Of a DNA stretch of 53,689 nucleotides, positions 41,431 through 48,697 are shown piece after piece. Both the position numbers and the translations under genes were made by a program. Under the pieces are notes generated by a model. The model was not told the DNA's origin, searched no databases, and saw only the letters and a program-made list of their open reading frames with translations. The stretch's first letter is position 1. Each line of letters begins with the position of its first letter. Location of the stretch: the NCBI RefSeq assembly GCF_014174255.1, contig NZ_JABEQJ010000032.1, positions 1 through 53,689 of the forward strand, written 5' to 3'. The stretch comes from Gluconacetobacter sacchari (GTDB lineage: Bacteria > Pseudomonadota > Alphaproteobacteria > Acetobacterales > Acetobacteraceae).

Positions 41431-41460
41431 TCCCACCCGGTCCCACCATGACGGGTGGGA
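41431..41460 (-). promoter_or_regulatory. inverted repeat in the rpoD leader (shared with yqeY leader)
   Basis: On the minus strand TCCCACCCG (41460-41452) and CGGGTGGGA (41439-41431) form perfect 9-bp arms with 12 nt between. The near edge is 70 nt before the rpoD start codon. The same two arms recur before yqeY at 43942-43972. An internal GGTGGGA (minus strand, 41447-41441) can pair with the first arm instead, giving two mutually exclusive hairpins. There is no T tract behind it, so a simple terminator is unlikely. The rest of the 41361-41577 gap shows no gene. Confidence 0.6.
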
Positions 41461-41577
41461 TACAAACCTCCGGATACGAAACGGCCATTCTATCGCATCT
41501 GACAAATTACAAGTGGTGTGCAGGTGGTCGATTCACCGGTCAAAGTCAAGGCCCGGCATGATCCGGACCGTCCCGCG

Positions 41578-43410
41578 TCACGCCTCGTCGACCGACACTT
41601 CCCCCCGCCGCAGGGCTTCCCACGCCAGCAGCCGGGGGCGCAGGCTGGCCCACGCGCGCTCGTCCAGCGTGCCCGCGCACATCCGCTCGGTATCCCCCCG
41701 CAGATCCTCGCCGAACTGGCGGACATTCATCAGCGCGTAGAAATGCCACCATTCCTGCGCCACATCGACCGCCATCAGGTCGTCTGCCGCGGTCACCGCC
41801 ATCGGCAGCGGCCGGGCCGACAGCACGGCGGCACGGTCCTCTCCCAGCCCCGCCTCGTCCAGCCAGGCGGCCAGCGCCCCGGCATCCATCGGCACGCCGT
41901 CCGAAGCCGCATCCATCAGCGCCGCGCGGACCCGGCCCAGCGCCGGAGGCAGGTCGAGCCGGCAATAGGCGTCCTCGACCTCGGGCAGCAGGGCCGGATG
42001 GCGCAGCAGGATCGCGGTCAGGATCCGCATCCGCTCCTCCGTCGCCGCCAGCGTGCCGAACGGTGCCGCGTCCATCGTGACGACGGAGCGTCGCACCGCC
42101 CCGTCTTTGCGCGGACCGCCGCCGGGGCGGCGGCGATAGGTTTCGAAAAACCGGTCCAGCAGGGTCGAGCGGTATTCCGCGGCCAATCCCTTGTCGGCGA
42201 CCATCGCGGCCGCCTCCGCCAGGCGCCTGCGCAACGCCGCCCGCTGCTCCGGCCCCGGATCACGCACGCCCCGGGTCAGCAGGTCGAACAGCACGGCACT
42301 CAACGGGCGCGCGCCCTCCACCAGCGCGGCGATGGCGCCCGCGCCGCGCGCCCGCAGCAGGCTGTCGGGGTCCTCGCCCTCGGGCAGGGTGCAGAACCGG
42401 ACCGTACGGTCGATCGACAGCAGCGGCAACGCGGTCTCGGCCGCCTTGACCGCCGCCCGCTGCCCGGCGCCATCCCCGTCGAAACACAGGATCGGCGCCG
42501 GCGCCAGGCGCCACAGCGCCTCCATCTGCTCCGGCGTCAGGGCGGTGCCCAGCGGCGCGACCGCGCCCGGAAAACCGGCCTGATGCAGGGCGATGACATC
42601 CATATAGCCCTCGACGACCAGCAGTTCGACCGGCGGCGCCCCCCGCGGCCGCGCCACGCGCAGCGCGGCGCGGGCACGATCCATGCCGAACAGCACCCGC
42701 CGCTTGGAAAACAGCTCGGTCTCCGGCCCGTTGAGATATTTCGGCTGCCCGTCCCCCAGGATCCGCCCGCCGAACGACACCAGCCCGCCCCGCCGGTCGC
42801 GGATCGGAAAGGTGACGCGATTGAAGAACAATTCCCCCCTGGGCCGCCCCTCCTCGTCCACCCGCATCAGGCCGGCCCTGGCCAGCAGGTCGGGCGTCAC
42901 CCCCCGGGGGCGCAGTTCCTCCAGCAGGCCGCCCCGTCCATCGCCCGACCAGCCGAGCCCGAAGCCGGCGATCGTCTCGTCCGACAGGCCCCGCCCCCGC
43001 AGATACGCCAGTCCGCCCCGCCCCTCCGGCGCGTGCAGCCGGCGCACCCAGGCGGCCTGGACCAGTTCCAGCACCTCGGCCAGGTCGCGGGCGCGCTGCT
43101 CGCTCTCGCGCTGCCGGGGGTCGGCGCGCGGCACCTCCAGCCCCGCCTCCGCCGCCAGTTCGGCGACGACCTCGGGAAAGCCGCGCCCCTCGCTCTGCAT
43201 CACGAACGTGATCACGTCGCCATGCGCGCCACAGCCGAAACAATGGAAATGATCGTCATAGACGTAGAAGGACGGCGTCTTCTCGCCATGAAAGGGGCAG
43301 CAGGCCTTCCAGTTCCGTCCCGAGCGGACAAGCTTCGTCCGCCGCCCGATCACCGCCGCGATCGGCGTGCGGGCGCGAAGCTCTTCCAGAAAAGCAGGGT
43401 CGAGCGCCAC
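41578..43410 (-). CDS. dnaG: DNA primase
   Basis: A 610-residue primase with GTG start at 43410. The CHC2 zinc ribbon uses Cys38, His41 (CPFH), Cys57 and Cys60 (CFGC). The catalytic core has the NFRVTFPI-like FFNRVTFPIRDRRGGLVSFGGRIL, the Toprim glutamate VVEGYMDVIALHQ and the DGDGAGQRAA metal motif. The C-terminal part is the DnaB-binding helical domain. It lies 4 nt after the yqeY stop and before rpoD, the alphaproteobacterial form of the macromolecular-synthesis operon. Confidence 0.96.
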   Translation of the reverse strand: MALDPAFLEELRARTPIAAVIGRRTKLVRSGRNWKACCPFHGEKTPSFYVYDDHFHCFGCGAHGDVITFVMQSEGRGFPEVVAELAAEAGLEVPRADPRQRESEQRARDLAEVLELVQAAWVRRLHAPEGRGGLAYLRGRGLSDETIAGFGLGWSGDGRGGLLEELRPRGVTPDLLARAGLMRVDEEGRPRGELFFNRVTFPIRDRRGGLVSFGGRILGDGQPKYLNGPETELFSKRRVLFGMDRARAALRVARPRGAPPVELLVVEGYMDVIALHQAGFPGAVAPLGTALTPEQMEALWRLAPAPILCFDGDGAGQRAAVKAAETALPLLSIDRTVRFCTLPEGEDPDSLLRARGAGAIAALVEGARPLSAVLFDLLTRGVRDPGPEQRAALRRRLAEAAAMVADKGLAAEYRSTLLDRFFETYRRRPGGGPRKDGAVRRSVVTMDAAPFGTLAATEERMRILTAILLRHPALLPEVEDAYCRLDLPPALGRVRAALMDAASDGVPMDAGALAAWLDEAGLGEDRAAVLSARPLPMAVTAADDLMAVDVAQEWWHFYALMNVRQFGEDLRGDTERMCAGTLDERAWASLRPRLLAWEALRRGEVSVDEA

Positions 43411-43414
43411 CGTC

Positions 43415-43870
43415 TCAGGCGGACAGCAGCGACTTGACCAGGGCGCTGGCCCGGCCGGCATCCAGCGCCGCGCCGAAGCGCGCCTTCAGCGCCGCCATCA
43501 CGCGGCCCATATCCTTCATCGACCCGGCCCCCAGTTCGGCGATCGCCTCGCGCGCCGCCGCCTCCAGCGCCGCCGCGTCCAGCTCGGCAGGCAGATAGGC
43601 GCGGATGGTCGCGATCTCGGCTTCCTCCTTCTCGGCCAGCTCGGGCCGGCCGCCCTGATGGTACAGCGTGGCCGATTCGGTGCGCGACTTGATCATGCCG
43701 CGCAGCATCGACACGATCTCGTCCTCCGACATCTCGGCGCCGCGCGCCCGGGCGGCGATGTCGGCATCCTTCAGCTTGGCGTTGACCATGCGCAGGGTCC
43801 CGACCCGCGCGCTCTGCCCGGCCTTCATCGCCGCCTTGAGATCTTCCATGAAACGCGCGCGCAGGCTCAT
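43415..43870 (-). CDS. yqeY: GatB/YqeY domain protein
   Basis: A 151-residue, all-helical protein of the YqeY family: MSLRARFMEDLKAAMKAGQ, RVGTLRMVNAKLKDADIAAR, EEEAEIATIRAYLPAEL and the C-terminal GSMKDMGRVMAALKARF. The domain resembles the tRNA-binding tail of amidotransferase GatB, but no amidotransferase activity is expected. It is the first gene of yqeY-dnaG-rpoD and divergent from carA, an arrangement conserved in Alphaproteobacteria. An inverted repeat lies 71 nt upstream. Confidence 0.92.
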   Translation of the reverse strand: MSLRARFMEDLKAAMKAGQSARVGTLRMVNAKLKDADIAARARGAEMSEDEIVSMLRGMIKSRTESATLYHQGGRPELAEKEEAEIATIRAYLPAELDAAALEAAAREAIAELGAGSMKDMGRVMAALKARFGAALDAGRASALVKSLLSA

Positions 43871-43940
43871 GATCCTGTACTCCTGGTTGCGAGGCCCCCG
43901 CCATAGAACGGGCGCCTCCGGGTCGACAGCCGGAAGATTT

Positions 43941-43973
43941 TTCCCACCCGAAAGGAAACGATCCGGGTGGGAA
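43941..43973. promoter_or_regulatory. inverted repeat between yqeY and carA (terminator-like toward carA)
   Basis: TTCCCACCCG (43941-43950) and CGGGTGGGAA (43964-43973) are perfect 10-bp arms with a 13-nt loop, followed on the plus strand by TTTTCTT. Toward carA this has the form of an intrinsic terminator 59 nt before the start codon, so it could be an attenuator. Toward yqeY the inner 9-bp arms are identical to the repeat in the rpoD leader and end 71 nt before the yqeY start codon, nearly the same distance. It can be an RNA hairpin or a protein operator. Confidence 0.65.
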
Positions 43974-43981
43974 TTTTCTTC

Positions 43982-44001
43982 CCAGCCTCACGAGAGGCTG
44001 G
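43982..44001 (+). promoter_or_regulatory. second hairpin in the carA leader
   Basis: CCAGCCTC (43982-43989) pairs perfectly with GAGGCTGG (43994-44001) around an ACGA tetraloop. It lies 8 nt after the first hairpin and ends about 14 nt before the carA ribosome site GGAAGGAAG (44016-44024). Its arms do not pair with the first hairpin, so it would form independently. Confidence 0.55.
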
Positions 44002-44032
44002 TAGGAGATACCCCCGGAAGGAAGAATTCTCC

Positions 44033-45430
44033 ATGCCGTCATCGATCGACCATATCATCGACCGTCTGGGCGGTGCCGACAATGCGGCACGCCTGACCGG
44101 CGTCGGGACCGAGGCCATCCGCAAATGGCGCCAGGCCGGCGCGATCCCGCCCAAACACTGGGCGGTGATCCTGCGCCAGACCGGCCTCAGCCTTGCCGAC
44201 CTACACCCCGACGGACCGGAGACCCCGATGACCGAGCGCCAGGCCCCCGCCCCTCCCTCCGTCACCCCCCCCGCCGGCGCCACCGCCGCGCTGGTGCTGG
44301 CCGACGGCACCGTCCTGTGGGGGCGCGGCTTCGGCGCCCACACCCCGGCCTCGGGCGCCGCCATCGGCGAGCTATGCTTCTCCACCGGCCTGACCGGCTA
44401 TCAGGAAACGCTGACCGACCCGTCCTTCGCCGGGCAGATCATCACCTTCACCTTCCCGCATATCGGCAATGTCGGCACGAACGAAGCCGATGACGAAGCC
44501 GCCCGAATCGCCGCGCACGGGCTGGTCGTCAAGCAGGATCTCACCGAACCCGCCAACTGGCGCGCCACCCAGGGCCTGGACGCCTGGCTGACCGCGCGCG
44601 GCGTGCCGGGCATCTGCGGCATCGATACCCGCGCCGTCACGCTGCGCGTCCGCGACGGCGGCCCGCAGACGGCCATCCTCTCCTACCCCGCCCGCGGCAC
44701 GTTCGACATCGCGGCCCTGCGCGCGCAGGCCGCCGCCTGGCCGGGCCTGGAAGGCATGGACCTGGCGCGCGAAGTCACCTGCGCCGAAGCCTACACATGG
44801 GCCGAAGGCGTGTGGACCTGGCCCGGCGGCACCCTGCCGCTGCCCCTGAAGCGCCGCCGCGTCGTCGCCGTCGATTACGGCGCCAAGCGCAACATCCTGC
44901 GCTGCCTGGCCAATGCCGGCTGCGACGTCACGGTCGTGCCGGCCACCGCCACGGCGGAGGACATCCTGGCCCACGACCCGGCCGGCGTGTTCCTCTCCAA
45001 CGGCCCGGGCGACCCGGCCGCGACGGCCGAATACGCCGTGCCCGCCATCCAGGGCGTGCTGGCGGCCGGCAAGCCCGTCTTCGGCATCTGCCTGGGCCAT
45101 CAATTGCTGGCCCGGGCACTGGGCGCGCGCACCTACAAGCTGGCGCGCGGCCATCGCGGCGCCAACCAGCCGGTCAAGGACCTCGGCACCGGCAAGGTCG
45201 AGATCACCAGCCAGAATCACGGTTTCGCGGTGGACGAATCCAGCCTGCCCGACGATGTCCGCGTGACGCACAGCAGCCTGTTCGACGGCTCGAACGAAGG
45301 CATCGCCTCCACGCGCTACCCGGCCTTCTCGGTCCAGTACCACCCCGAGGCCAGCCCCGGCCCGTCGGACAGCCACTACCTGTTCGACCGCTTCGTCGCC
45401 CTGATCGACCGCACCAATCAGCCCGCCTGA
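44033..45430 (+). CDS. carA: carbamoyl-phosphate synthase small subunit with N-terminal HTH-like extension
   Basis: A 465-residue glutaminase subunit from ATG 44033 with a strong GGAAGGAAG site. The standard CarA begins only near residue 66 (ATG 44228, then APPSVTPPAGATAALVLADGT). CarA features follow: ELCFSTGLTGYQETLTDPSF, CGIDTRAVTLRVRD, the catalytic Cys353 in FGICLGHQLLARAL and the His/Glu of VQYHPEASPGP. The first 58 or so residues (IIDRLGGADNAARLTG, TEAIRKWRQAGAIPPKHW, LSLADLHPDG) look like a YdaS/Cro-type helix-turn-helix. As I recall, such an extension has been noted in other alphaproteobacterial CarA proteins. carB follows after 12 nt. Confidence 0.93.
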   Translation: MPSSIDHIIDRLGGADNAARLTGVGTEAIRKWRQAGAIPPKHWAVILRQTGLSLADLHPDGPETPMTERQAPAPPSVTPPAGATAALVLADGTVLWGRGFGAHTPASGAAIGELCFSTGLTGYQETLTDPSFAGQIITFTFPHIGNVGTNEADDEAARIAAHGLVVKQDLTEPANWRATQGLDAWLTARGVPGICGIDTRAVTLRVRDGGPQTAILSYPARGTFDIAALRAQAAAWPGLEGMDLAREVTCAEAYTWAEGVWTWPGGTLPLPLKRRRVVAVDYGAKRNILRCLANAGCDVTVVPATATAEDILAHDPAGVFLSNGPGDPAATAEYAVPAIQGVLAAGKPVFGICLGHQLLARALGARTYKLARGHRGANQPVKDLGTGKVEITSQNHGFAVDESSLPDDVRVTHSSLFDGSNEGIASTRYPAFSVQYHPEASPGPSDSHYLFDRFVALIDRTNQPA

Positions 45431-45442
45431 AAGTCGCGCCCC

Positions 45443-48697
<3,255 letters not shown>

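Follow-up and report, generated by a model that had tools for sequence, protein, structure and literature searches.

We have analysed a 53,689-nucleotide stretch of DNA, contig NZ_JABEQJ010000032.1 of Gluconacetobacter sacchari (the window), with attention mainly to the region between two divergent genes, carA and yqeY. CarA is the glutaminase subunit of carbamoyl phosphate synthetase; here it carries a helix-turn-helix (HTH) domain at its N-terminus and is referred to as HTH-CarA. Between the two genes are two 17-bp palindromes, and it seems likely that HTH-CarA binds this predicted operator pair and represses carA. CarA, dnaG and rpoD were identified through NCBIfam; the yqeY product had no NCBIfam match at E 0.001, and its name is kept from an earlier note on this DNA, called the original prediction below. 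The features on which the argument turns are the following, with our own labels used below for genomes (G), loci (L) and one genus (g54).

44033..45427, plus strand: carA with N-terminal HTH, 465 aa (TIGR01368, E 2.7e-131; NF046037, E 8.5e-18)
44045..44203, plus strand: Cro-like helix-turn-helix (carph-isopro) domain, from NCBIfam, Pfam and PDB profile matches
43968..43984, no strand assigned: proximal palindrome O1, predicted operator, TGGGAATTTTCTTCCCA, 12 of 12 consensus bases
43930..43946, no strand assigned: distal palindrome O2, predicted operator, CCGGAAGATTTTTCCCA, 10 of 12 consensus bases
43979..44007, plus strand: proposed carA promoter, TTCCCA (-35, within O1), N17, TAGGAG (-10), inferred from sequence
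44218..44230, plus strand: proposed start of plain CarA, an internal Shine-Dalgarno-like GGAG (44218-44221) and in-frame ATG (44228-44230), from the window sequence

The N-terminus of the window CarA passes the cut-off of the NCBIfam model NF046037, carph-isopro, scoring 64.3 bits against 38. It misses the gathering cut-off of Pfam P22_Cro (24.9 against 30.2 bits), a family matched at E ≤ 0.01 by 19 of the 19 domain members compared, and by its sequence the domain is best described as Cro-like yet outside the Pfam P22_Cro membership. When a profile of the 19 domains was searched against the PDB, it matched 5w8y (protein XPH1, E 0.00015), 3bd1 (Cro protein, 0.0003), 2hin (repressor protein, Gp39, 0.0011) and 1rzs (regulatory protein cro, 0.038); seven further matches, at E 0.8-1, were to unrelated proteins. 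Five phage records match the domain with about 32-33% identity and two of these are annotated as transcriptional repressor. Across the 19 sequences 13 of the 60 domain columns are invariant. Of 121 loci that match CarA, counting duplicates, 120 have the HTH and CarA in a single frame; the exception, L040 from a draft assembly of Asaia prunellae, has a shift further on. Within CarA itself C353, H437 and E439, which we take to be the catalytic triad, are invariant in all 27 aligned sequences. To judge from these residues and the TIGR01368 match the enzyme part of HTH-CarA is intact; by the domain matches a putative DNA-binding part is present in the same protein. These are two of the properties looked for in a trigger enzyme, a third being a change in transcription with the metabolic state. 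Trigger enzymes are of a known kind, as set out in passages of PMC6245113, PMC6978683 and PMC3602430.

Two 17-bp palindromes of the form TGGGAA-N5-TTCCCA are conserved upstream of yqeY in the Acetobacteraceae. O1, whose start is 65 bp upstream of the first codon of HTH-CarA, is the sole exact copy of this pattern in its own genome; with one mismatch allowed there are three further places, against one for a control pattern, and these were taken as chance. The spacing between O1 and O2 is 38 bp, a value also seen in the same-genus loci L004-L015. From yqeY to the start of the nearer palindrome the distance varies from 33 to 165 bp across loci, and the pair therefore looks anchored on carA. No clear periodicity was seen in the spacing of the palindromes when it was examined for helical phasing (13 distinct spacings; resultants 0.23-0.43).

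The evidence that ties the palindromes to the domain comes from comparison of upstream regions. For this a set of 64 non-redundant HTH-CarA regions of 260 nt was used, with any site holding at least nine of the 12 consensus bases counted as a palindrome; identical 200-nt upstream regions, loci without a match to the CarA body (such as L053) and the window's copies were left out. At least two palindromes were found in 62 of the 64 regions and one in the other two (L113 and L152). Among 3200 single-base shuffles 2906 were without a palindrome and 20 had two or more. In a second set of 80 loci 76 hold carA, which is divergent from yqeY in all 76. At least two palindromes are present in 40/40 of the HTH-carA loci and in 0/36 of the carA loci without the HTH, where the divergent gene order is the same. 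The remaining four loci are L053, in which the HTH is present, CarA is cut off and there are two sites, and L062, L065 and L075, in which no carA and no site were found. L062 comes from a Rhodovarius metagenome-assembled genome with no carA found beside yqeY and no palindrome upstream of yqeY. In the genus g54 (G066 and G152) carA lacks the HTH and is flanked by yqeY and carB, and the upstream region searched contained no palindrome with at least nine of 12 bases; this probably represents one natural loss of the domain together with the palindromes. Ten genomes were chosen for missing, weak or stand-alone domain matches, nine of them from the search of 150 family genomes and G013 from another search. 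Among the ten a complete CarA lacking the domain was seen in only these two, which belong to one genus. CarA is cut off or partial in G063, G181 and G105, and no convincing CarA was found in G013, G032, G146, G076 and G111.

The exact palindrome shows the same tendency across the family, occurring in 95 of 150 genomes, whereas the reversed pattern used as a control occurs in 11 of 150. In a set of 36 family genomes there are 37 exact palindromes, 34 of them at 19-108 bp from a domain match, and 30 of the 34 genomes in this set with a domain match have an exact palindrome beside it. Among the matches listed for the family genomes there are 75 exact places in 57 genomes, 67 of these at 19-136 bp from the domain. 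Exact palindromes lying away from the domain are found in G009 and G028; outside the family G036, G038 and G059 have one each.

The position of the palindromes relative to carA suggests how binding might act on transcription. A palindrome whose first base is 28-31 bp ahead of the start codon, an ATG in 29 cases, is present in 30 of the 64 regions. The bases just before it are T in 29, T in 26 and G in 25, with the full TTG in 23, and after it there is an A at -11 in 25 and a T at -10 in 19, which suggests that the palindrome occupies the place of a 17-bp -35/-10 spacer. A leaderless start of carA is likely in these regions. The layout resembles the mapped promoter consensus of Gluconobacter oxydans, ttGnnn / Tatnnn, reported together with 62 leaderless mRNAs in passages of PMC5756330, a text in which neither carA nor yqeY is mentioned. 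In another 26 regions, which lack a site at -28 to -31, one is found at -69 to -63; here TAGG follows TTCCCA by 17 bp in 19, and the other seven have other words there, mostly TA-like. Both layouts would fit repression, the spacer layout more clearly.

The linker between the HTH and CarA is poorly conserved. In 58 of the 64 loci it contains an in-frame ATG, and in 49 a Shine-Dalgarno-like word stands 4-14 nt ahead of such an ATG; when GTG is counted too, these figures become 61 and 53. Such a word precedes 8.7% of all linker positions. Counted by codon, 49 of the 70 in-frame ATGs of the linker have one before them, compared with 6 of 197 ATGs within the body of CarA (Fisher p 5e-30, relatedness not corrected); the same is true of 0 of 12 ATGs in the HTH part, 0 of 33 out-of-frame ATGs and 4 of 19 in-frame linker GTGs. 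ATG itself is four times as frequent in the linker (3.5%) as in the body (0.8%). We infer that the original carA start has been kept within the fusion, and there is a good chance that plain CarA is made from it as a second product.

Sequence comparison establishes the fusion, both palindromes and the way they go with the domain, as well as promoter-like surroundings and signals for an internal start. From these we propose the following mechanism. The Cro-like domain on CarA would bind both 17-bp operators, a step in which we have considerable confidence, with dimers of HTH-CarA occupying the two sites cooperatively or through oligomers of the enzyme. Once bound, HTH-CarA would block RNA polymerase at the carA promoter, and repression of carA in this way is probable; the protein would then be a self-repressing biosynthetic enzyme. 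The ribosome-binding site in the linker would allow the same mRNA to yield plain CarA as well. Pyrimidine nucleotides or arginine/ornithine, through an action on CarAB, are examples of a metabolic signal that may tune DNA binding, as is the occupancy of CarB.

Several observations weigh against autorepression of this kind. The loci are related and the counts are not independent, so that the association comes down to about one gain and one loss. Four of the 36 carA loci without the HTH have a single stray site with nine of 12 bases, the other 32 having none. Exact palindromes were found in no more than the 95 of 150 family genomes given above, and some lie elsewhere than beside the domain (8 of 75 among the matches listed, 3 of 37 in the 36-genome set). 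G108 has 11 exact palindromes, none of which is on the contig of its own domain match. These 11 (loci L180-L185) are of two near-identical forms, the centre being ACACC/GGTGT in nine and GGTTT/AAACC in two, and are probably a dispersed repeat. The best Pfam HTH matches of the domain, P22_Cro and YdaS, are below gathering, a T at -12 is present in just 13 of the 30 regions with the spacer layout, and three of the 64 linkers have no in-frame ATG or GTG. The promoter layout also differs between lineages, which makes activation possible in the acetous group.

Such activation of carA by HTH-CarA would have O1 overlapping a weak -35, and TTCCCA, which O1 does overlap, departs from the usual -35 sequence. 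The sites of class II activators overlap the -35. Binding to the palindrome at the -35/-10 spacer place found in 30 of the 64 regions should, however, block polymerase, and the domain resembles phage Cro regulators, which leaves activation rather improbable. The palindromes might also be operators of an unrelated transcription factor for carA and/or yqeY, with the Cro-like domain having some other role; domain and sites are linked here by sequence comparison, and the eight exact palindromes away from the domain could be read in this way. However, exact sites number one or two in most of the family genomes examined and usually lie next to HTH-carA (34 of 37), and the palindromes appear with the domain and are missing in g54, where the domain is missing. 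The association and the loss in g54 fit a local autoregulator, and we consider an unrelated factor to be quite improbable.

The original prediction concerned a different element, an inverted repeat before yqeY and rpoD that was thought to be a shared operator or RNA hairpin for the operon:

43942..43972, no strand assigned: reported inverted repeat at yqeY, made of the O2 right half and the O1 left half, out of register (window sequence and relatives' alignment)
41431..41460, no strand assigned: inverted repeat before rpoD, outside the operator system; its exact form is found only in the window's genome

Both repeats are where they were described, with exact nine-base arms separated by N12 at rpoD and N13 at yqeY, and the open reading frame coordinates place the rpoD start (41360, minus strand) 70 nt beyond the end of the first and the yqeY start (43870, minus strand) 71 nt beyond the end of the second. 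No match to the repeat pattern was found in 100 shuffles of the window. The identical arms and similar distances favour a shared element, as does the occurrence of the arms with N8-20 at just these two places in the 4.83-Mb genome rather than at many unrelated ones. The conservation looked for in relatives was not seen, the exact repeat being missing in the other 59 of the 60 genomes searched, 13 of them of the same genus, and the relatives show different conserved cores at the two sites, contrary to a single shared element. The repeat at yqeY consists of the right half of the distal palindrome and the left half of the proximal one, and its CCG/CGG ends vary among relatives; as aligned, the inverted repeat is a by-product of the two palindromic predicted operators. 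An operator had been suggested for a region that does hold a real operator-like element, the divergent region between carA and yqeY, with the repeat drawn out of register. The statement that no element of this kind had been described agrees with our literature searches on the carA/yqeY region, which found no description.

At rpoD the case for the same element fails. In 13 Gluconacetobacter rpoD leaders (the window and L156-L167; 11 distinct in the last 100 nt), searched over the 190 nt before rpoD, an operator-like site with at least nine of 12 bases was found in none. The leaders of close relatives have hairpins of the type TCCCAC...GTGGGA with differing inner bases and are only partly similar; elsewhere in the genus the leader sequences are different again. 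In the window CCGGGTGGGA contains the right arm of the rpoD repeat, where close relatives have CCGGAT.... The match between the two repeats is taken as a species-specific coincidence, though sequence exchange between the two sites is possible, and a shared operator or hairpin for the operon is highly improbable. A plasmid search with the rpoD leader gave no match. The TCCCAC...GTGGGA hairpin can be folded in the rpoD leader of several Gluconacetobacter (window 41441-41460; L157-L160, L163) and may be a separate small leader structure. Further upstream, a CCTTGACTT-type sequence before rpoD (window 41535-41552, minus strand) is common to many of L016-L049, and because so many relatives share it rpoD probably has its own promoter inside the operon.

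A 6-bp stem closed by a 5-nt loop can also be drawn for each palindrome, and an RNA hairpin, such as an attenuator, terminator or riboswitch in the carA or yqeY leader, was therefore considered. Of the arm pairs at 126 palindromes 667 were consensus and 89 changed, with 74 broken, 13 G-T and 2 Watson-Crick, a count that is supportive rather than decisive, since the palindromes were picked by likeness to the consensus (at least nine of 12 bases) and a compensated change counts twice, biasing it against compensation. On this covariation check of the palindrome arms the hairpin part of the original prediction is disfavoured. The proximal site is upstream of the proposed transcription start in 30 of the 64 regions. 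No Rfam family matched the window at its gathering score; one sub-threshold match, to anti-hemB (window 43895-43980, overlapping the operators; E 0.028, 22.6 against 49.5 bits), was taken as chance. With neither a pattern of compensatory changes nor an Rfam gathering match, by which a structured cis-regulatory RNA was to be recognised, RNA hairpins appear a very unlikely account of the palindromes.

The operator pair is flanked by genes that bear on what autorepression by HTH-CarA might reach:

45443..48697, plus strand: carB, downstream of carA (open reading frame)
43418..43870, minus strand: yqeY, divergent from carA in 76 of 76 loci and a possible second operator target (open reading frame)

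In eight of the nine probed loci of relatives that hold carA whole or in part, carB is beside carA, the exception within its stretch being L204. The position of the palindromes between carAB and the yqeY-dnaG operon makes joint control of the two possible, and we put forward operator control of yqeY-dnaG-rpoD only tentatively.

A search of the family found the domain in 144 of 150 genomes at E 0.001, with 142 above the NF046037 cut-off; some of these matches are stand-alone proteins. In some members of the family, among them G070, G072 and G124, the open frame at the domain is short. Small stand-alone carph-isopro proteins (L198-L201, frames of 78-105 aa) occur in four family genomes including the window's own, and are perhaps phage-type regulators. 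When 385 genomes of the class were searched with the CarA-type domain, scoring at most 16 candidates per genome, there were at least seven matches at 1e-8, five of them in members of the family; the other two were weak and CarA was not found in their loci. Within the genomes covered, the fusion seems restricted to the Acetobacteraceae. For one HTH-CarA locus, L055, the label goes no further than Rhodospirillales. The name 'carph-isopro' was not found in the literature searched, which left most subscription journals outside its coverage, and no description was found linking carA or carbamoyl phosphate synthase in acetic acid bacteria with a helix-turn-helix or Cro protein. The domain is already modelled by NCBI; what is new is the pair of predicted operators, their association with the domain and a gene with two apparent starts.

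The pathways to pyrimidines and to arginine both draw on carbamoyl phosphate. In E. coli carAB is under several separate regulators and trigger enzymes, according to passages of PMC6245113. Across an entire bacterial family this task seems to fall to the enzyme subunit itself, by way of a domesticated phage-type repressor domain and local operators. This would be a clean case of an enzyme turned autoregulator, with a domain-free lineage as a natural control and possibly a gene with two products. If yqeY-dnaG-rpoD were to respond as well, the supply of carbamoyl phosphate would be tied to replication priming and transcription. A fuller history, in which the ancestor of the Acetobacteraceae captured a phage Cro-type repressor gene upstream of carA and the two became an in-frame fusion with the ribosome-binding site of carA retained, giving two products, and in which the operators couple carbamoyl phosphate supply to yqeY-dnaG-rpoD, is doubtful as a whole.

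Among known systems, the NF046037 carph-isopro model covers the N-terminus of the window CarA but carries no operator or function. The operators of phage Cro-type regulators are about 17 bp long. These regulators (5w8y, 3bd1, 2hin and 1rzs) resemble HTH-CarA in their domain profile and in having palindromic operators. They differ in being stand-alone, with no enzyme fusion. In PutA the DNA-binding part is a ribbon-helix-helix, and in BirA an HTH is joined to the enzyme; BirA represses genes other than its own. PutA is catabolic, whereas here a Cro-like HTH is found on a biosynthetic glutaminase subunit with an apparent internal start, and unlike BirA there is one clear candidate target, the enzyme's own promoter region. 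The likeness lies in PutA, a proline dehydrogenase, directly repressing its own pathway's operon, put, and in BirA, a biotin enzyme and repressor of the bio operon, being a working enzyme that represses biosynthesis genes (passages of PMC6978683). BzdR, as described in part of PMC3602430, has an HTH-XRE domain joined by a linker to a shikimate-kinase-like domain and likewise shows a DNA-binding domain recruited to an enzyme domain; its kinase-like part is without detectable kinase activity, whereas CarA keeps its conserved residues. A parallel in the gene controlled is E. coli carAB, whose transcription is regulated by enzymes, the trigger enzymes PepA and PyrH, along with other factors (passages of PMC6245113); there the regulators are separate enzymes, whereas here the regulated enzyme would itself bear the DNA-binding domain.

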